From assembly GCA_951799405.1 (NCBI GenBank), contig OX637334.1, forward strand, positions 10,788,001 through 10,852,000: a stretch of 64,000 nt of DNA. The letters run 5' to 3'. Under the pieces are notes generated by a model. The model did not search any database. It was not told the origin of the DNA and saw only the letters and a list, made by a program, of their open reading frames with translations. Shown here in pieces: positions 18,501 through 33,500 of the stretch (position 1 is the first letter of the stretch; each line of letters opens with the position of its first letter). The position numbers and the translations under genes are program-made. The stretch comes from Agapetus fuscipes. Taxonomy: Eukaryota > Arthropoda > Insecta > Trichoptera > Glossosomatidae.

Positions 18501-21500
18501 TTCCTTAAGGATGTTCATCTCCTAGGGTACCGTTAGCTCAACCAAGAATACTTGCTTTAGTTCAACTGTGTGTAAAGCTATGTCAAGTCTCACTGCAGTA
18601 ATGCATAATTCATGAAAAAATATGCAAGGACTTATGAAAATGGCTGTTGATCTGCAATGTCGGAAACTAGGGTTTTTAATTTGAAATATTCTTATATGTT
18701 GAAACTTTTTTTTTTGTATGATTTTTGTCCCACAGGGGAGTACATTGGCATTATCCTTGCCCTGCCAGCCACTGGTTTCCTCTCCTCTTCTTCATGGGGC
18801 TGGCCCTTTGTCTTCTACTCCTTCGGAGGCATCTGCTTCCTGAACGGCATTGTGTGGTACTACTACGGAGCCAATTCCCCGGCAGAACATTCCAGCATCA
18901 GCCAGGAAGAGAGGCGGTTTATTGAAGAGTCGCTGCATCAGCATACTAAGTCAAAAGTAAGAAAAAGCCATATTATCTAATTCAGATTTTCAGCAGTAAC
19001 TTTGTGAAGATTGGTATTTACAAATTAAATTAAATTTAAATATGATGACAATCTTCCCAAAAGTGTGGAAAACATCTACATAGTAAGTTCTATGGGGTAA
19101 ATGAATTGTTTGGATAATAGTTGATTTGGTTCCACCCAGATGACAGGTGGTATGATGAGACAGCATAAACAAGTGCAGAGGTCACTTTGTCCAATTAGTT
19201 CCACTTAGACCCTCAAACAAGCAACATAGACCTATTGAAATAGACTAGGCCATCCATGATGAATTTACAATGATCTATTTTTATACCCAAGTCTTTCACT
19301 TCATCCTGAAATAAACTGAACACCTCAGTGGTTCGACCACAATATCTTGTACTTGTATATGCATCCAGCTGTCATTCCGCTGGGGGTGGCCAGTATCTCT
19401 ATAGATGTGTCTCCATTTTGTTCTGTCCTTTTACATTTCTTTCAAATTTAATCTACATTCATAACTCTCTTCATGGATGCTCTTCTCTTTTTGCCACTCT
19501 GCAAATTACAATTTTCGCAATCTCGTTTATTTGATCAATCCATTTTTTCGTCTGTCTTCCCCTTCCGTGCTTATCTTTGACATTCCCTTTGAACACTCTT
19601 TTGGTCAATAGTTCATCATTCATTCGTTCTAGATTCCCGAAGTATTTCATTGTACCCATTTGTACTTTGATTCTCACTACACTCATAATTTAGTCATATT
19701 TTCACATTTTATCAATGTTCTTCTAGCCCCGGAAGACCCCTTGGAAGGCCATTGCAACGAGTGTTCCAGTCTGGGCGCTGCTGACAGCACAAGTGGGTGC
19801 TATATCAGGATACAATATCATGGGAATAGAGACTCCATCTTACTTCAAGCTGGCATACGGGATAGATATTGAAAAGGTAAGGCCTGAAAACTGTTATCAG
19901 TTAGAAAAAAATATTATTTTGTTGTTGAACAATGAAAAGTGTCATTATGCCTACAATGGCAATTGTAACTCTGGTTTAACTTTGCTCAGTATCATCCATA
20001 TAGTTAATATTATATCGAGCATATTATTTTCTCACAACTCAGTCAGGTGATGTCACATTTTTTGTCTATTTGTTTTATCTTGAGTCATCAGGAACAAAGT
20101 GCATTTGTGAACAGGTTCATCTATGAATAAGGAAGAAAGTGTTCCAAATTTAAATTCTTGATTTATTACATATCCTGCCATAGATCAGTATACTATAATA
20201 TTGTTATGTAAATATTAATATTGAAATAAGTATGGGTAGTTATAGTTATAAGAATCCTCAAAAGTATTGGTAGGTAAGATCGATAATTATGTATAAGTGT
20301 AGAATTCTCTAGGCTAAGTAGGTATTTGTTATAATTATAGGAATACTGTGTTACATTTGTAGGTAGGATTTTGGTTGTATCTCTAGGTAGTACGTGAAAC
20401 ATCGAGAAGTAATAATTACTCTGGAACCGTCTAGCAACTTTGGTTCTAGATCATACTGCTCTACAGAGTATAAAGGTGCGAATGGCCTGCAGAGCGGGCC
20501 AGTATCATAGCGACTAACAAAGACATCGAAGCCATCTGATCAGTGAACCGAAACCAAATGGAATAATCGAGAAAGTAGTGTGAAAATAAATTTTGTAACT
20601 GTGTAAAATAAATAACTATTGAAGAAGACCTGTGTGTTTTTAATTTGAAGACAATTGAACCCTAATTTCGTAACAATTGGCGTCAGGTGCGGAATTGTCA
20701 AGAAAAATTAAGATCTTCTGTCTAAAAATAAATAAAATAAATTAAATAGTGTTAAAATGAACTTTATTCAAATTGAACTTTGTGTGAACTGACTTTTGTG
20801 AAAACAAGTGTTTAAATAAATTTTTGTTAAAAGAAAAGACGCAAAAGCAAGTTGCTTATAAATTCTGGAACATCATATGGAACATAATTCTGGACATAAC
20901 ATAATGACTATTTTACCGCATTGAGAAAGTCATCAAATTGGACCATAGTTTTTTTATTATTGTGTGTGATTAAAAAAATAAAATAAATAAATAAAAATCT
21001 TGAAAAATATCACAAAAGAACGTTCCAGATTCATCGAGAAAAAGTTTTTGAATAACTATCCTTTGTTTACAAGTGTGTGAATGTACATTAAGTACCTACC
21101 TGTGTGTTTGAAAGACTTGAGACGAAATAAATAATTATGTACTATCAGACATTATTATGTTAAAAATATTGGTGAATTAAAAATAAATATTAAAAGACAG
21201 TACCTACCTACCAATCAGTGTAATCAGACAAATTATTATTTTTGCTAAAGTACGTATTCAAAACAGCTATATATATAAAACTCAAAACTTGTATTAAATA
21301 AATTTGAAAATATTTTTGTTTTGACGTAAATTTAAAAAAAAAAAAATGGCAACTAAAGTGAACGTCAAGGACCTCAAAGTCACTGAGCTTAAAAATGAGC
21401 TTCTGGAGAGGGACCTGGAGACCTCAGGAGGAAAGGCAGCCTTACAAGCACGCCTCATAGAGGCCTTGGAACAGTCAGGCGAAGACCCGGCATATTTTGT

Positions 21501-24500
21501 CATGGCGTCTGGAGGGGACCGCGCCTTGGACGAGCTAAATATCAGCATCAACAGTAACCTGACAGGACTGAAGACTGAGATGGCTGACAACGCCAAGACC
21601 ATGCAGGAGAACCTGTCGGACCTGAAAGTGGAGATGGCTGAAAACGCCAAGGCTCTGCAGGAAGACCTCTCCACCATGAAGGAAGACCTCGCCAACATGA
21701 AAGAGAAGATGAGCGAGAATCTCACAACCCTGAAGGGAGAAATGGAGGAGAAGATGACAGCCCTGAAGGGGGAAATGGAGACTCGGATGTCAAATCTGGA
21801 GGTACATCTGCGTGCCGAGCTGACCGACAAGGGCCAGATGGAGTCCACCAGAATATCCCCCAAAGGCCTTCACGACGAGACCGACCAGGGATGCTCAACT
21901 CCAACCAGGATCACAAGAGGGGATGATGACCCTTCCCTAGCCAAGCACAACCTCCCAACCTTCGACGGGAAGACGTCGTGGGAGGAATACTTGACCCTCT
22001 TTGAGACGGCTGCCATGATGGGAGCCTGGAGCCAGCAGAAGAAGGCTTCGGTTCTCAGCCTGTCGCTCCGAGGAGACGCTCTCAGGGTTCTGCAGGCCAT
22101 ACCCCTGGACAACCGTGGTGACTTTGGGCAGCTGAAGCAGCGCTTGGATATGCGCTATGGCCACAAGTGCCTGGAGCAGCTGTACAAGTCGCAGCTGAAC
22201 ACAAGGGTGCAGAAGCCCAACGAGAGCCTCCAGGAGTTTGAAATGGACATCGCCCGCCTGGTACGAGACGCTTACCCGACAGCCTCCGACGACATCTGTG
22301 AGAGCTTGGCAGTGGACAAGTTCCTAAATGGATTGCGGGAATGGGAGACGCAACAAGCCGTAAAACTGGCCCATCCCAAGGCTTTGAACGAGGCGCTCAG
22401 CCAAGCTCTCGAGTTTGAGGCTGTCAAACAGTCCATCAGGGGCCACGCCAGGGTTCGTGCAGTCGAGGCAGAGGAGGTCAAGCTACCTACAACCGAGGAG
22501 CTAATTGAAAAAGTGCTGGAACGTCTGAGACCTCGAAGACGAGACCCACGCTGCTGGAACTGCGGACAGCTGGGCCACCTTAGCACCAAGTGTCCCAAGC
22601 CTCAGAAACCCAGAAAACAGGCTGCGGAAAACTAGAAAGGGTTAATGGGAAGGGGCAACCGTTGACCCACGCTGGAGAGGCCCTGAAATCTGCTGCTACT
22701 GTCGCAACCGTGAGAGGAAAAGCCAGCAGCATTTTTATCAATGGCATAATAGATGGAGTAACTCGTGAACTACTGGTGGACACGGGAGCAACCAGGACAA
22801 TTCTGAGACGCGACATAGTGGCACGAGGTAAGCAGATTGCACCAACAAAGTGGTCTCTGCACACCGCCACGGGAGAGTCAGCACAGGTGTATGGGGAGAC
22901 GATTGCCACCTTCCAAATTGGCAGCACCACTTTTGATCATCGGACGTTGGTGGCCAACATTGAAGAAGACGTTATATTGGGAATGGACATACTGGACAGA
23001 TTTGGGTGCAGTTTAAATTTAAAGAAAGGGTCCATTAAAATTGGAAATGAAGAAGTCATCCTGCAAAGACGGAAAGAACTGGCTGCACGTGTTATCCTAG
23101 CCAAGAATACCGAAGTGAAGGGGCGATCCGAGATGATAGTGAGTGCCCGCCTGGATTCCAGTAGTACAAATGACCAAATCTGTATGATAGAACCGGAGAA
23201 CATGGACAATGTTAACAAAGGAGTCATGGTGGCAAGAACAGTGATTCGCGCAAAGGAGACCATTCCTGTCAAGATCATGAATGTGAACAGCTACCCAGTT
23301 AAAATGAATGAAGGTTTTGTTTTGGGCAGATGTGAGAGGATAACTTCCATTGTGCAACAGATGACAAACATGTCATGCGAAGGAAACAAATTGTCAACAC
23401 AATTGGAAGCCCTGGTCCACGACGCTTCCCAAGGTCTAACCGAGGAAAACAAACGGAGAGTGAGGAGTTTGATCTGCCGCTACCAGAACATTTTCGAGGA
23501 CTCTAATGGCCGTCTGGGAAGAACCAAGGTAGTGCGACATAGCATAGACACCGGAGAAGCGAGACCAATAAAACAGGCTCCAAGAAGACTACCCTTTGCA
23601 AAGCGGGAAGAAGCTGACAAGATCATCAAAGACATGAGCAAGGATGGCATCATAGAACCATCAAGTAGCCCTTGGACATCCCCGGTGGTACTGGTGAAAA
23701 AGAAGGATGGTACCACGAGATTTTGTGTGGACTACAGACTGCTCAACGATGTTACGAAAAAGGATAGTTACCCTCTGCCAAGGATTGACGACACCTTGGA
23801 CACATTGGCAGGATGCACCATTTTTTCCACATTGGACCTGAAAAGTGGCTACTGGCAAGTTGAATTGGATGCCAAAGATAAGGAGAAAACGGCATTCTCG
23901 ACTGGATCTGGACTTTGGCAGTTCACCGTGATGCCATTTGGCTTATGCAATGCCCCCGCCACGTTTGAAAGGCTGATGGAGAATGTGCTGCGAGGACTGT
24001 CATGGGAAACCTGCCTTGTATACTTGGATGACATAATCATCCTGGGAAAGGACTTCAACCATCAGTTGAGAAATCTGGAGCAAGTTTTCGGGCGACTACA
24101 AGACGCTGGACTGAAGCTCAACCCGAAAAAGTGTAACCTGTTCAAGAAACAAGTAAATTACCTGGGACACATAGTTTCTCAACGTGGAGTTGAAGTTGAC
24201 CCTGCCAAAATCAAGGCAGTAAGAGACTGGCCCGTGCTGAAGGACAAACATGAAACTAGGAGCTTCCTGGGGCTGTGCACTTATTACAGGAGGTTTGTGC
24301 CAAGATTTGCGGACATTGCAAAACCGCTCACCAAGCTTACGGAAGAAAACACTCGCTTCCATTGGAGTGATTCCTGCGCACAAGCATTTGAAGAGCTTAA
24401 GGGAAGATTAACAAGTGCCCCCATCTTGAGCTACCCACGAAAAGATGGAAAGTTCATCCTGGATACCGACGCTAGTAATGTGGGGATAGGAGGTGTCCTT

Positions 24501-27500
24501 TCCCAAATACAGGATGGGCATGAGACTGTTCTGGGTTACTTCAGTAAAGTGCTTTCCAAGCCAGAACGAAATTATTGCGTGACCAGACGAGAGCTTCTTG
24601 CCGTGATAAAATCAGTGGAACACTTCCGCAAATACTTGTACGGGAGAAAATTCACACTACGGACTGATCATGCTGCACTGGTTTGGCTTCTGAAATTCAA
24701 AAACCCAGAAGGGCAAGTGGCTAGATGGATTGAAAGGCTCCAGGAGTATGATTATGACTCCGAACATAGACCTGGCACGCTTCATCGAAATGCGGATGCA
24801 TTATCCAGACGACCATGCGCCAGTGACTGCAAACATTGCAGCAGGATGGAGGACAAGGTAGCAATTGTCCAAAGGACGACCACCGAAGATGAGGACTGGC
24901 AAGATGAAAAATTGGCGCAAGACCAACTGAATGATCCGGACTTGAAGTATGTGATGGAATGGGCGCGAGAAAGAGAAAGGCCAACCTGGGAAAAACTCGC
25001 CCCCTTATCACCAACTGTCAAGGCTTATTGGGCTCAATGGGGATCCATAGTGATTGAAGGAGGGTTTCTGAAACGAAAGATCGAGAAGGAAGACGGCACA
25101 CTTAGAAGAAAGCAAACCCTCGTTCCGAGGAGCCGAGTACCGGAAATCCTTGGACTGCTGCATGGAGGAACTTCTGGAGGACATCTAGGCGTTAAGAAGA
25201 CGCTGGAGAAAGTGAAAGAGCGATTTTACTGGATCAACTGCAGCGAAGACGTCAAAGATTGGTGTCGAAAATGTGTAACCTGTGCAACGGCCAATGGACC
25301 GCAAAGGAAAAGGCGAGCACCAATGCGTCAGTACAATGTTGGCAGCCCCTTTGAAAGAATTGCCATCGACATAGCCGGCCCATTTCCTACAACTGAGAAG
25401 GGTAACAAGTACATCATGGTGGTGATGGATTACTTCAGCAAGTGGGTGGAAGCTTACTCAATCCCTAACCAAGAGGCCGTAACCGTGACTGAAGTTCTAG
25501 TTACCGAATTTATCAGCAGGTTTGGCGTACCCCTGGAATTACATTCTGATCAGGGAAGGAACTTTGAAGCTGCTATCTTCCAGCAAATGTGTGAGCGGCT
25601 AGGGATCTACAAGACCAGGACCACTGCGCTACATCCACAGTCTGATGGAATGGTGGAAAGGATGAACCGTACCGTGGGGAGGTACTTAGCCAAAGTAGTG
25701 TCCAGCCATCAGCGGGACTGGGACCGACATCTGCCTTTGTTCTTATTGGCTTACCGGTCGGCTGTTCAGGAAACGACGAAGAAGACTCCCAGCAGCATAC
25801 TGTTTGGGCGAGAAATGCGACTTCCTTGTGATCTCAAATTTGGCTGCAAACCAGGTGAAGACCTAGCCGGAGAAGACTATGTGACAGACCTTCGCAGGAG
25901 GCTGGATGACATCCATGATCAGGTCCGCATGAACATCGGGGAAGCCAGCGATCAAATGAAGGAGCGCTATGACACCAGAGCTGACAGCATGGGGTACAAA
26001 GCTGGTGACTGGGTGTGGCTTTTTGACCCCAAGAGGCGCCAAGGATACTGTCCGAAACTTCAGCGTTCCTGGGACGGGCCGTACGAGATCTTGGAGCGCA
26101 TCAACGATGTGGTCTACCGCATAAAAAAGAGACCAAACGGAAAACCAAGGGTCGTGCACTACAATCGCCTCTCACCATACCTAGGCGATAATGATGACCA
26201 ACCAGCCCAAAAAGTACGACAGTGCGTCGCATCCGAAAGATCACCAGCCTTTGAGACGTTTTGGGAGAACGCGAAGGCAGGGCAGAAGTTTCGCCATGGA
26301 GTGACCACAGAAGTCCACAAGGACTTATTTGAGGTCACTAGGGACCACACACTGGCATGCAGTGTACCGGAAGATCTAGATATGTCTAGAGGAATTGCAC
26401 GGGTCTTCCGATACAAATTCGGAGAACCGCAACCCTCGAGCAGCCCGCAAGGAAGAGCTCTGAGACTACCGAAGGGGCGTCAACAAGCATACTGCCTGGT
26501 TGTCCCGGATTCCAGCAACCTGGAAGATGACTACAAGGCATTGTGGGACGGCCTTGTTGAGCTGCGTGACTACATGCTGGAGGATCAGCAGGCGCGTCTG
26601 GCAATACCAAAGATGGGTGGCGGCCGCGCCAATCGAGATTGGCGGATAATCCGGAGTATGATTGAAGCAGTGTTCTCGGGAGTCGGCATCAGCGTCATGG
26701 TGTGCTGCGAGCAAGCGCAGCCGAGAGCCAGTGGGGAGAAATCCGTGGACTGCCACTTCTTCCTGACCACAGGGTGTCGACGTGGATCAGCATGCCCCTA
26801 CCTACACAGAGTCAAGACTGTTCCGGGACGAAACAGTCTAGGTGGGGGGTAGTGTTATGTAAATATTAATATTGAAATAAGTATGGGTAGTTATAGTTAT
26901 AAGAATCCTCAAAAGTATTGGTAGGTAAGATCGATAATTATGTATAAGTGTAGAATTCTCTAGGCTAAGTAGATATTTGTTATAATTATAGGAATACTGT
27001 GTTACATTTGTAGGTAGGATTTTGGTTGTATCTCTAGGTAGTACGTGAAACATCGAGAAGTAATAATTACTCTGGAACCGTCTAGCAACTTTGGTTCTAG
27101 ATCATACTGCTCTACAGAGTATAAAGGTGCGAATGGCCTGCAGAGCGGGCCAGTATCATAGCGACTAACAAAGACATCGAAGCCATCTGATCAGTGAACC
27201 GAAACCAAATGGAATAATCGAGAAAGTAGTGTGAAAATAAATTTTGTAACTGTGTAAAATAAATAACTATTGAAGAAGACCTGTGTGTTTTTAATTTGAA
27301 GACAATTGAACCCTAATTTCGTAACAATATGTATCCAGCATTCTGTCAAAATATTGAGATAAAAGTGTTGTAATGAATAACAAATGAACATTTATTTTAT
27401 TGGTAAGTAGATAATACTAACTTACGTGTTAGTTGGTAGTTTTTATTCTTAATAATGTGTTCAACAACTTTTAGGTTTTTTTTACTAGTCCTACATTGCA

Positions 27501-30500
27501 GGATTTCTTTGTGCATCCCATCTTGTCATGAGATGTAAAGCATTGTTAGAGTTAGATGCAGTTACATAGGCGTGTGACGTTGGTCTACCTAAAATATTTA
27601 TAAGTCTCCTAAAACCCATGCCGAAAAACTTTCCGAATCAATTTTTGACGTCCAACCAAGTTATTTTTGTCTTCCAGAGTGGTCTATACTCCGCCCTTCC
27701 ATACGCCGTAGCCTGGTTGATGACAATCATTGCCAGTTTTGTAGCAGATGCCATGTTCAATGCAGAATTGTTGTCTTTGAAGGCCACAAGGCAAGTCTAC
27801 AACAGTCTAGGTAAGCCATTAGTATCTAGTAACGCTTTCCAGAGAAAGGATGTTCCATAGAAATTTCTAGATTGATGCAGTGCGCTAGGAAATGTCTACG
27901 ATGGAGTCTGCATATTTAACAATGATGCACATGCTGCATTTCAACTCAATATATGACGATCCTTAGAAAATGCCACAGCAAGACTCATAGATGATACAAT
28001 CCCTCCGTACTCCGGTTCCCCCAAATCACTCCTCATCTAAAGGGCCTCCACTAGTCAAGGATTCTGGAAATTTTCCAGCCCAAAATCTGCTCCTTGATCT
28101 TCAAGGCTCGACACGTGACTGCCGAGAATACATGAAAGAGCTCGATATCTCTCGAATAGGCACACTCTGAGGTCGGCGAATCCAAGGCTCAGCAACCTGG
28201 ATAACCTCGTAAGATAGCCGTAAATTACTCTTGGTGATCGCGCCTTCAAGTTGGCTACTCCAACAATATTGTGGAACACCCTCCCACAGGCCACAGTGCA
28301 TATAGGAACTAGACGCTGAGACAAGTTTTAACAAGGCATTAAAAACTGATGGGATGGCTTGCAGTTTAGCGGATGTTAAAGAAAACACATGTCACTTGTA
28401 GAGTGGTTTGACAGACAGTAATATATTTGTGCTACCAACCATACAATGTTATATAATAGGTAGTTGCCAACATGGCTGTGACAGGAGTGTCATTCTAACA
28501 CCCCCACTCACTCCTGATACCCTGCCATCTAGGTTGTATCAGCTGTTACATTTTACCATTTCAAAAAACAAAAAATACACATGCATATGGAAACATTTGG
28601 ATCAATAATTTGACATAAAAAATATTAATTTCAAATAAGAGTAATACATGGTTAACATAAGTGCACAATTCTAAAAACATGAAAACCATTAAGAACATAG
28701 TAGGATGATGTTTTAAAGTATAAACACATATTTCAATTTAAACAGACATTACCTACTACAGTTGCATGGACAAAAAATAGTTTCAATAGTTATATGATTC
28801 AAGTAGAGAACAAAAAATGTATGAAGTACAATGATAAATGAGATTCAAGCATTAATTAATAACTCACACTTAGTAATTATAGACAGTATTTGCAGGCACA
28901 CAAAGATAATAGTATCATATTCACACATTGTCGTTGAGACACTTGTTCATCCCAAGCTTACTCATTAGTGATTTCATCTTGTCGGCTGACAGTGGCTTTG
29001 TGAGCAAATCAGCCTCGAGCTCTTCAGTCTTCTTGTATATTAACTCGACTGCGTTGTGTTTCACTGCATCTCTTATAAAATGTTCTCTGATATTTATATG
29101 CTTTGATTTTCTGGACACAATTGGATTCTTTATTAGCTGTTGTGCGGCTTGACTGTCATTATAGATTTTCAGTATTCCATGATCAATTCCCATGTCCTTG
29201 TATAACTGTGATAGGTGCATGGCTTCCTTAGCAGCTTCTGTGAGAGCCATGTACTCTGCTTCGGCCGTCGATAGGGCAACGGTCCTCTGCTTCCGGGACT
29301 CCCAACAGATAGAAGCTCCAGCATATACAAAACAGTATCCGGTGAATGAACGCCGGTCCACTTCACATGCGCCCCAGTCAGCATCTGCAAATCCTTCTAG
29401 GGGCTTTCCAGTTTTCTGAAAAGTTAGTCCTAGGTCTTGAGTTCCCTTGAGATATCTTAATACTCTCTTGGCGCATTTCCAGTGTTCTTGACTATAGTTG
29501 TTATTGAACTGGCTCAAATAGCAAACAGCATGCATGATGTCAGGTCGTGTTGCTATGGCTAAGTACATGAGTGATCCAATTAAATTTTGGTATGGTAGTT
29601 TCTCATCATTCTCATTCCTTTGCACCTTCAATAGCTTTTGGCCGCGCACCATAGGTGTCGATGCGGGCTTGCATTCACTCATGCCATGTGACCTTAGTAT
29701 ATTGCTTATATACTCGCTTTGCGTTGCGACAATTTTATTTTTCAATACTTGGAAATTAATGCCGAGACAGTAGCTCAGTTCATTAAGATCTTTCATCTCA
29801 AAATTCCTTTGAAGTAGTTCTTTTACTTCTTTGGCTCTGTTTTCATCTTTGTAGGCCATGATGAGGTCGTCCACGTACACGGCTATGATGATGGCATCAC
29901 CTGCCTTCTCTTGTACATATATGCAAGGGTCGGCTTCCGATGGTATGAAGTCGATATTTCTCAATGCTTGGTCGAGCTTCTTGTACCATTCTCGTCCGGC
30001 TTGTTTGAGGCCATACAGTGCTTTGTTTAGCTTGCACACACTGCTCTCCCCATGCTTCTTTAGGTTAGCAAGCATGTTTCTCGCAGCGTGAAATAGAGTT
30101 TTGTCTTCATTACTGCTCTCATCGATCATGATTTCAGATAACGCATCTTCGAGATCATTCGGTACTTCCATTAGAATCCTCTCTTCCAATGTTCCATTGA
30201 GGTATGCGGTTATCACATCAAGTTGATTTAATTTCAAGCTCTTTTCAACTGCTAAGGCCAGTAATGCTCTTATTGACTTCAGTTTTGCCACTGGAGCATA
30301 TGTTTCACTGTAGTCGATTCCGGGCATCTGGGAGAAACCACGGGCGACTAATCTAGCCTTCTTCCTCGTTGTTTCCCCGTTGGCGTTGATCTTATCTTTA
30401 AGGACCATTCTGCAAGATATAGTCCTGTCGCTGACTGATCTTGGGATTATCTTCCACGTGTCATTCTTCAAATGCGCTTTCATCTCTTCTTTTATTGCCT

Positions 30501-33500
30501 TTTTCCATTCGCCGTCTTGAAGGTTCTCGTTTCCGCTGCACACGTATGACACGTCGTAATCTTGAGCCCAAATTGGTGCACGTTTAGTTCTTTGTGGTCT
30601 CTGCTCAATATCATCGGCTAGTTCAGTTTCAGTGCTTTCTTCCTGTGCTGAAATCTCTTGTGGCTCTTCCTCTTCAGTGTGATCTTGAACTTGAGGTTCT
30701 TCCTCCTCAGTGTGATCTTGAACTTGAGGTTCTTCCTCCTCAGTGTGATCTTGAACTTGAGGTTCTTCCTCCTCAGTATAATCCTGAAGTTCTCCCTCAA
30801 TTTCAAAACTTTCTTCTTGTTCCAGGGGAACAGCAATTGTTTCTGGTATTCTTTTAACGTTTCTCGAGGAGCTTGTTAAGTGCTCGAGAAATTTGACATC
30901 TCTGCTAATGATGACTCGGTTTTCCTTCTCCACCCATATCCTGTAACCTTTTGTGATGTCAGAGTATCCGATAAAGATTCCCTCCTTGGATCTGGGTGCC
31001 AGCTTTCCCTTTCCTGGTTGGCTGTCTCGTACATACACTTTGCAGCCGAAGTTCCTGAAGTGTTGAACGCTTGGTTTTGTTTCTCTCCAGGCTTCGTACG
31101 GTGACTTTCCGTGAAGGGCCTTGGATGGGCATCTGTTCCTGATGTAGTTTGCGGTGTTCACGGCTTCCCCCCAGAACTTCTCGGGCAAGTTTGCCTGGGT
31201 AAGTAAGCACCGTGCTGTATCCATCAGTGTGCGGTTTTTCCTTTCCGCTACACCATTCTGAGCTGGGGTGTACGGTGTGCTCAGGCGCCTTGTAATCCCC
31301 TTTTTCTTCAGGAAGTTTTCAAACTCTTTTCCTGTGTATTCTGTGCCGTTGTCGGACTGCAAGAATTTGATACGCCTGTCCTTTTGGTTTTCCATCTTCG
31401 AGGCTACTTCCTTGAATGCGTCCAGTGCTTCTCCTTTTGTTTTCAAAAACCTAATTTCCGTCCATCTTGAGTGATCGTCAGTGAATGTGATATAGTACTT
31501 GGCTCCTCCGATTGACTCTTGTCTCAGTGGGCCAAACACATCGGAGTGTACAATCTCCAAACTCAATGTTTTCTTTTCCGAGGCCTTTGGCATTGGTAGT
31601 CTTGTCATTTTTCCCACCATACAGGTTTCACAGTTTAGATTACCCATTTGTGAGAATTCTAGTCCTATCAACGATTTTCTTTCCTTGGCTTGTCTTAGAT
31701 CTTGTTCGTTCAAGTGACCAAGACGTTTGTGCCAGAGTTCCATATGGCTGGACTTAGCTATCACTGCGGCATGTTCCCTTGTGTTGAAAGTCTTGACGTA
31801 GTAGAGGCCTTCAGATTTTTTCGCAACTAATATTATTTGACCATGCTTCTCTACAACTGCTTTGTTTTTTACAAACGTGACCTCTCCTCCTAAGCTGGTT
31901 ATCTTTGGTATAGAGATCAGGTTTGTGCGTAGGGTGGGTACATACAAGACATTTAAAAGTTTAACTGATGATATTTTACCGTCGATTTTTACATCGATCT
32001 CGACGGTGCCTCTTGCTAAGGCTTTGGTTGTTCCACCATCAGCAAGACTTAGGGTTCCGCTGGTTTCATCCTTACTTGTGAACAGTGTGATCTCCTTGCA
32101 CATATGTGAAGTGGCGCCACTGTCCAGGCACCAGTCCCCCAACTCCGTCATCAAGTTAGTCTCCTCTATGATGATAGCAGCTTGTTTTTTCTTGCGGCAT
32201 TCGGCCGCTTTGTGGCCCGTTTTGTGGCAAAAGTGGCATTTGAACGCAAAAGGCTCTGCACTTTTTTCCTGGAGCTGTGGTCTTCTACTGGGATAGTGTG
32301 TTTTCTTCTTGGCGTAGAATGCGCCTTCTGTTCTTTCTTGTCTCTTTCCCCGTGCTTCATTTTCCTCCAAAATTTTGATTCTGAGCGCGTCCGGGGTTGG
32401 GAGTTCGTCACGTGATTCGATTGCACACCTGAAGTTCTCAAATCTCTCTGGGAGGCTATACAATAGCATTATCGCCAGGAGATCACCGTTTATTTCTATG
32501 CCCATTTCAGATAGTTTGTCAACGTTTTCAAAAAACTTATCCACGTGGTCGCGCACATTTTCGCCGTCTTTCATTTTCGCCAAAGTCAGCTTTTTCAGGA
32601 GCGTGGCCTTCCTTGCTGGTCCGCTCGAATGATAAACTGACTCCAGTTTCAACCAGGTCTCTCGGGCGGTGGAGCATCCTTTGATGTGTTTCAGCTCCGC
32701 AGGGCTGATCAGCAGGATAATGTCTGATCTAGCTCTTGCATCCGCCAAAATCCACTTTTTTGATGCCTCTGCTTCAACCGGTTTTTGGGAGAGACCGGTG
32801 ACGTGATCCCACGCCTCATTTCTGATGAGGAGCGCCTCCATATGAATCCGCCACGTGTCATAATTGTGACATGCGAGCGGTTCGATCGCAGCAATGTTTG
32901 TGCGAATGGTTCTTGGCTCCATTTTTCGTTTTTTTCAGGCAAATAACGGCGGTGACTGCTTTCAATGTTTTCTCAGCTATTTCTTGGGTTATTCTGGGCC
33001 CATAACCTGATGGGATGGCTTGCAGTTTAGCGGATGTTAAAGAAAACACATGTCACTTGTAGAGTGGTTTGACAGACAGTAATATATTTGTGCTACCAAC
33101 CATACAATGTTATATAATAGGTAGTTGCCAACATGGCTGTGACAGGAGTGTCATTCTAACAAAAACCCACCTCTTCACTTAACCTTACAGGCAAGCACCT
33201 TAGTTATGGCACAACCGTAAAAGGCACTAAACAAATTTGTGTTTTATTATTATTGAAGAACATTACTGCAAATGAAAAGAACACATGAACCTCAAAGGCT
33301 TTAATTATATAAAATTTGCTGTAGCTTTTCCCTAAAACACAAATAAACTTTTAAAAAGTTAACTTTAAAAAGTATTTCCAAAATAAAAACGTCATATAAT
33401 AAATTTTACAGAATAACAATAATCAAAATATAAAATGTTTTAGCTACGCCAAAAAAAATATTAAGTACTTACATAAAAGGCTTTGTTGGCTTTTAAATGA

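Follow-up and report, generated by a model that had tools for sequence, protein, structure and literature searches.

A CCCH zinc finger preceded by a predicted TARG1-family macro domain without its catalytic residues at the end of a Gypsy Pol protein in Agapetus fuscipes

TARG1/OARD1 (C6orf130) is the human terminal ADP-ribose glycohydrolase, an enzyme that takes ADP-ribose off proteins and for which the excerpt of PMC6397177 gives the residue roles and the enzyme pattern TKx(30,35)Px[IL]GxGxD, containing the catalytic K84 and D125. Here we describe a 64,000-nucleotide stretch of the Agapetus fuscipes genome (contig OX637334.1, forward-strand positions 10,788,001 to 10,852,000; this whole stretch is called the window, and coordinates are its own) with a Ty3/Gypsy long terminal repeat (LTR) retrotransposon whose Pol protein, as read from its sequence, ends in a TARG1-family macro domain lacking both catalytic residues and then a CCCH zinc finger. 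The domain differs from TARG1 by its fusion to a retroelement Pol or, in related elements, Gag, by replacement of K84, D125, T83 and S35, and by the finger that follows it.

Several described systems resemble this arrangement in part. Chromoviruses are likewise Ty3/Gypsy elements with an extra domain, but theirs is a chromodomain, carried after the GPY/F-type module of the integrase. PARP12 and ZAP/PARP13 have CCCH fingers and a PARP domain, and like the window tail they join a finger of this type to a domain related to ADP-ribose within a single protein; theirs is a writer fold, whereas the tail has no PARP domain and a reader/eraser fold instead. The macrodomains of alphaviruses and coronaviruses, as presented in the excerpt of PMC7232374, are virus encoded and counter host ADP-ribosylation, but they are catalytic members of the macroD2 family in RNA viruses, whereas the window domain is of the TARG1 type, lacks the catalytic residues and sits in an LTR retroelement. 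Fish epsilon-like endogenous retroviruses (Basta et al. 2009, cited in the excerpt of PMC4977317) are retroelements with a macro domain, which they carry in additional open reading frames (ORFs) and not as a fusion to a Gypsy Pol or Gag. An orchid Gypsy element with an AlkB m6A demethylase (excerpt of PMC9289625) is similar in that a noncanonical domain, for which action on a modification has been proposed or demonstrated, has become fixed in a Gypsy element. It differs in that this domain is encoded by an additional ORF and is an RNA demethylase; that excerpt names no macro domain among the extra domains of plant Gypsy elements. No report of a Gypsy element with a macro or TARG1 domain was found among the papers listed, from a literature coverage that excludes most subscription papers and repeat-database reports.

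The macro domain and zinc finger at the end of Pol

The tail of Pol contains the following features.
26301..26711, plus strand: TARG1-subfamily macro domain (homology and predicted fold)
26322..26324, plus strand: conserved Asp at the position of TARG1 D20, which contacts adenine (alignment)
26505..26507, plus strand: Pro replacing the TARG1 catalytic K84 (alignment)
26628..26630, plus strand: Ala replacing the TARG1 catalytic D125 (alignment)
26751..26807, plus strand: CCCH zinc finger, C-x7-C-x5-C-x3-H (PF00642, 21.6 bits against a cut-off of 20.5)

The window macro domain matches TARG1 with E values of 6.9e-11 (phmmer), 2.1e-22 (profile) and 2.3e-31 (profile-profile), and its predicted structure is a macro fold for which TARG1 is the nearest structure. 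An initial annotation of this DNA had proposed a macro-like module at the C terminus of a Gypsy Pol, with the catalytic Lys and Asp replaced by Pro and Ala; sequence, profile and predicted fold confirm the module as TARG1 type, and the alignment bears out both replacements (K84P and D125A). In the profile search that it had suggested as a check, the profile-profile comparison with TARG1 was positive, and the Pfam Macro model, PF01661, gave no match at E values up to 10, its curated cut-off likewise not being reached. This model is blind to the window domain and was dropped as a test of membership. The domain also lies far under the cut-off for the DarG antitoxin macrodomain (NCBIfam NF048014, 23.9 of 250 bits).

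In the alignment to TARG1, the adenosine/diphosphate half of the domain is kept (D20, L21, F22, P118, G121, and G123), including the adenine-binding Asp (D20) and the GxG diphosphate loop (G121 and G123) of the hydrolases, and the distal-ribose/catalytic half is changed (S35P, T83V, K84P, and D125A, with L47 replaced by V). The hydrolase pattern TKx(30,35)Px[IL]GxGxD, present in 114 of 119 database relatives, is absent from the window domain, in which the corresponding positions read V-P and A. Two further subtypes, L024 and L035, share 51% and 73% of macro residues with the window; their catalytic pairs read R/A and P/A, respectively. All three retain D20-L21-F22 and the GxG loop. Cleavage of ADP-ribose through another residue is known from other macro subfamilies, one subclass of which has Gln for Lys (excerpt of PMC9967889), but with P/A, R/A, and P/A at the Lys and Asp places of the three subtypes compared, we regard it as very improbable that the window domain still works in this way, although an alternative nucleophile was not looked for systematically.

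The finger is, by its family, probably of the RNA-binding type. It recurs at identical place and spacing in L024 and in P0099, a 200-residue protein on a contig of 1017 bases from a different data set, where it scores 17.3 and 20.3 bits, respectively, under the PF00642 cut-off. P0099 is 43% identical to the window macro domain over 79% of the latter. Its catalytic positions are occupied by Lys and Asp, and the macro part is followed by a linker of the window type and the CCCH finger; it begins inside the macro domain, on a contig too short to show an integrase. In the tree, P0099 and the three window subtypes form one clade with support of 100/99. The initial annotation, correct on the domain, had overlooked this finger and, as described below, the fusions to Gag and two other Gypsy families in which a TARG1-like domain lies elsewhere in Pol.

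The element, its copies and the Gag-macro fusions

The tail belongs to a young and abundant Gypsy element with the following features.
20202-27326, plus strand: whole Gypsy element (LTRs and ATAT duplication)
20198..20201, no strand: target-site duplication ATAT, left copy (sequence)
20202..20675, plus strand: 5' LTR, 474 bp, 473/474 identical to the 3' LTR, with ATAT flank
21346..22635, plus strand: gag ORF, 429 amino acids, with SAP domain, Retrotrans_gag, and CCHC knuckle (Pfam)
22590..26852, plus strand: pol ORF, with protease, reverse transcriptase, RNase H, H2C2 and rve integrase, SH3/GPY-F, macro, and CCCH parts (ORF, Pfam on pieces, macro from homology)
26076..26177, plus strand: C-terminal module of the integrase (p58_C/SH3, GPY/F type; PF22938, E value of 4.8e-13)
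26853..27326, plus strand: 3' LTR, beginning directly at the end of the pol stop codon (26850-26852)
27327..27330, no strand: target-site duplication ATAT, right copy (sequence)

These LTRs, together with gag and a pol ordered protease, reverse transcriptase, RNase H, and integrase, identify a Ty3/Gypsy LTR retrotransposon, and the near-identity of the LTRs agrees with the earlier view of a young element. The gag and pol ORFs overlap in different frames. Because the stop codon of Pol abuts the 3' LTR, the macro-CCCH tail occupies the gap between integrase and LTR, and no chromodomain was found there among Pfam matches at E values up to 10 (positions 26205-26852).

The genome searched comprises 618 Mb in 148 contigs, and copies were scored starting from the best-scoring ones. 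With the window tail as the query, 150 of 1408 candidates were scored; all 150 carry the tail free of stop codons, and 120 lie in frames of at least 1400 residues. As the best-scoring copies were scored first, these fractions overstate intactness across the genome. An exact 36-base pattern from the window macro domain occurs at 29 places, and identical copies are therefore far fewer than family members. Among 619 candidates in the protein collection, there was no full-length Pol relative at an E value of ≤0.01, and the first search there returned one near-identical fragment, P0002.

The same tail is also found on Gag. Among 36 rows in which upstream frames were compared, window and repeat fetches included, Gag and macro could both be read in five loci only (L036, L037, L040, L043, and L045), where the macro domain is preceded not by integrase but by a Gag end that contains both a CCHC knuckle and a coiled coil. 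One of these, L037, extends upstream into L090 and forms a complete LTR element about 4.4 kb long, whose LTRs are 97.6% alike to each other and 74% like the window LTR; at the nucleotide level, its gag is 85 to 87% and its tail 90% alike to those of the window. Its Gag and tail lie in a single frame of 792 residues, with no integrase in that frame. The upstream part is called Gag because it matches the window Gag, its knuckle scoring 19.6 of 20.8 bits, just below the Pfam cut-off. A 175-residue linker query, spanning the sequence that separates the knuckle from the macro domain, gave 1093 first-look candidates, of which 150 were scored; again all were stop-free, and 129 lie in frames of at least 750 residues, fractions that overstate intactness in the same way. 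Gypsy elements of this kind, polymerase-less and with Gag, coiled coil, macro domain, and CCCH finger in one frame, are abundant. An origin of the coiled coil as a piece of the window Pol was considered and discarded, there being no significant match (best protein E value of 1.2, best DNA E value of 0.37). The linker of L036 is window-like and that of L037 is not, which indicates that tails have been exchanged between element types; the history of any single tail is therefore mixed.

The placement of the tail bears on two alternatives. It lies directly after the GPY/F-type module of the integrase, the position of the chromodomain in chromoviruses, as would suit a targeting module whose macro domain brings the integration complex to ADP-ribose-marked chromatin; a role in the integration complex, reading PARylated chromatin, had likewise been offered by the initial annotation. 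That role is not borne out by the nonautonomous relatives, which retain the module in a frame that has Gag and a coiled coil but lacks integrase, and the family of the CCCH finger suggests RNA over chromatin. We thus consider targeting unlikely, and the Gag fusions point rather to the particle or RNA, though integrase would come in trans. The second alternative is a macro fold that has lost ADP-ribose binding and instead provides a scaffold on which protein or RNA docks during assembly or packaging of the genome, so that the fold is kept and not the cleft. The combination of S35P, T83V, K84P, and D125A, the Gag fusion with its coiled coil, and the CCCH finger would all be in keeping with such a scaffold, but D20-L21-F22 and the GxG loop are kept even though residue differences from the window amount to 49% in L024 and 27% in L035, and we find this somewhat unlikely, if less so than targeting.

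Pairwise counts of synonymous and nonsynonymous changes were used to obtain the ratio of nonsynonymous to synonymous differences (pN/pS). For the macro domain, this ratio is 0.09 between the window and L037 (23 synonymous and 7 nonsynonymous changes, p of 8.6e-10), 0.12 with L036, 0.17 with L040, 0.25 with L035 (p of 3.5e-12) and 0.46 with L024, the last with synonymous sites near saturation; the corresponding dN/dS values are 0.137 for L035 and 0.166 for L024, the latter again near synonymous saturation. Between fusion elements, 9 of 10 pairs give a macro pN/pS of 0.13 to 0.30 (p of 0.026 or lower) and, in the same pairs, a gag pN/pS of 0.34 to 0.65; the tenth pair, L043-L045, is nearly identical. 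For the finger, pN/pS between subtypes is 0.34 to 0.51 (p of 0.12 for window-L035 and of 0.0014 and 0.0074 for the others). The macro domain has thus apparently been kept by purifying selection, even in the stripped-down copies fused to Gag. LTR elements do trap host sequence, and the tail could in principle be a passenger, a piece of a host gene caught by reverse transcription and of no use to the element, but the selection signal across subtypes, the matching tail in the separate record P0099, and the retention of the tail in frames without polymerase genes make this scarcely credible.

TARG1-like domains in other Gypsy families, host genes and viral collections

A second Gypsy family (family B, the window being family A) has nine copies in the genome with a TARG1-like domain, in frames of up to 1266 residues. 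In L015, this domain lies between RNase H (E value of 5.6e-42) and the H2C2 module of the integrase (E value of 5.7e-20). The family B profile matches TARG1 with an E value of 1.7e-24, and in the alignment S35, T83, K84, and D125 are kept, with Ser at D20. Family C, with frames mostly of about 1280 residues, carries a recognizable but eroded domain in the same slot. It was rejected as a full macro domain, having no PDB profile match at E values up to 10, and aligns with TARG1 over 80 columns only (hhalign E value of 3.1e-6, probability of 88%) and with family B over 132 columns (E value of 5.2e-11); it is called eroded because of this missing PDB match and partial TARG1 alignment. Across L015-L023, L082-L087, and L089, the RNase H-integrase linker is TARG1-like, with catalytic residues in one family and erosion in another, and the linkers of other Gypsy elements may hide such domains too. 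In the RNase H-integrase linker of the window element, read by eye only, no macro remnant was seen.

Three host loci (L012-L014) have a TARG1-like exon with the catalytic residues kept; in L014, a long Arg/Ser-rich stretch precedes the first TARG1-like part in the same frame. The host TARG1 keeps K and D, has G at S35 and A at G121 in the alignment, and groups with flea TARG1 and two further records (support of 95/89). Since both family B and the host TARG1 keep K and D, the catalytic loss is assigned to the lineage of the window. The tree, the bootstrap of which had not fully settled, places families A and B apart. Two separate captures were considered and not adopted, as neither one common clade (approximately unbiased test, p of 0.361) nor a grouping of family A with host TARG1 (p of 0.528) is rejected; only the two distinct slots in Pol are established.

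In IMG/VR, neither the window domain nor that of L015 has a relative. Fourteen of its contigs (L091-L104) match P0099, with 33 to 45% identity over most of its macro part, and none of these 14 loci has a reverse transcriptase, integrase, or finger match. They look like stand-alone TARG1-like genes, possibly viral or phage erasers of ADP-ribose, and are not evidence on retroelements.

Downstream of the Gypsy element, positions 28343-33161 of the window hold a Copia-type LTR retrotransposon on the minus strand, with 158-bp terminal repeats that are 99% alike.
28921-32922, minus strand: Copia-type ORF, 1333 amino acids, with gag, integrase, and RVT_2 domains (Pfam)

Possible role of the tail

Our tentative preference is that the macro-CCCH tail is an ADP-ribose binder on the particle or RNA that blunts host ADP-ribosylation. 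A TARG1-type eraser would have been captured with an intact active site, which P0099 still has, and would have turned into a binder in the lineage of this host. The CCCH finger would hold the element RNA, and the macro domain would cover or sequester ADP-ribose on Gag, RNA, or the reverse-transcription complex, the writer presumably being a PARP12-like or PARP1-type host enzyme. The fusion elements would borrow protease, reverse transcriptase, and integrase in trans, and because these polymerase-less elements retain the tail in their own Gag, its role would be exerted in cis and concern the particle or the RNA. There is a precedent in viruses, whose macrodomains act against PARPs; for one stage early in the alphavirus cycle, binding suffices even when hydrolysis is lacking (excerpt of PMC7232374).

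The host genome has five PARP-type exon matches. Two neighboring ORFs (L105 and L107, G000:C17) encode a PARP12-like catalytic domain; their best PDB match is PARP12 (2pqf, E values of 4.6e-20 and 3e-14), and they match ZAP with E values of 3.5e-14 and 8.9e-8. A PARP1 exon is found on C3 (E value of 3.2e-21). The two ORFs on C17 form a candidate defence locus. That a captured eraser was made into an RNA-tethered reader that counters a PARP12/ZAP-like defence, and is valuable enough to be kept on Gag by polymerase-less parasites that have shed protease, polymerase, and integrase, is a possibility that we regard as somewhat doubtful.

Several observations weigh against the tail being an ADP-ribose binder that protects the particle or RNA. 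The four changed distal-ribose positions may mean that ADP-ribose binding is weakened or lost, and ADP-ribosylation of Gag or of element RNA is presumed only. The CCCH part of the structure model has a predicted local distance difference test (pLDDT) score of about 50 to 60, RNA binding by the finger is suggested by its family alone, and its selection signal is mixed, with pN/pS from 0.15 to 1.7 and few changes in close pairs. Some macro comparisons are weak as well (window-L043, 0.15, p of 0.029; window-L045, 0.23, p of 0.056), and with tails recombining, part of the constraint seen in the fusions may stem from the autonomous lineage.

Pfam-based annotation can miss domains of this kind, the Macro model giving none here. 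If the tail acts as we propose, the logic of macro domain versus PARP, known from RNA viruses, would operate inside eukaryotic LTR retrotransposons. Versions of the domain with catalytic residues, without them, or eroded occur in autonomous elements and in polymerase-less parasites, which allows two questions to be tested, namely whether retrotransposons are restricted by ADP-ribosylation and whether the element needs binding alone and no hydrolysis.
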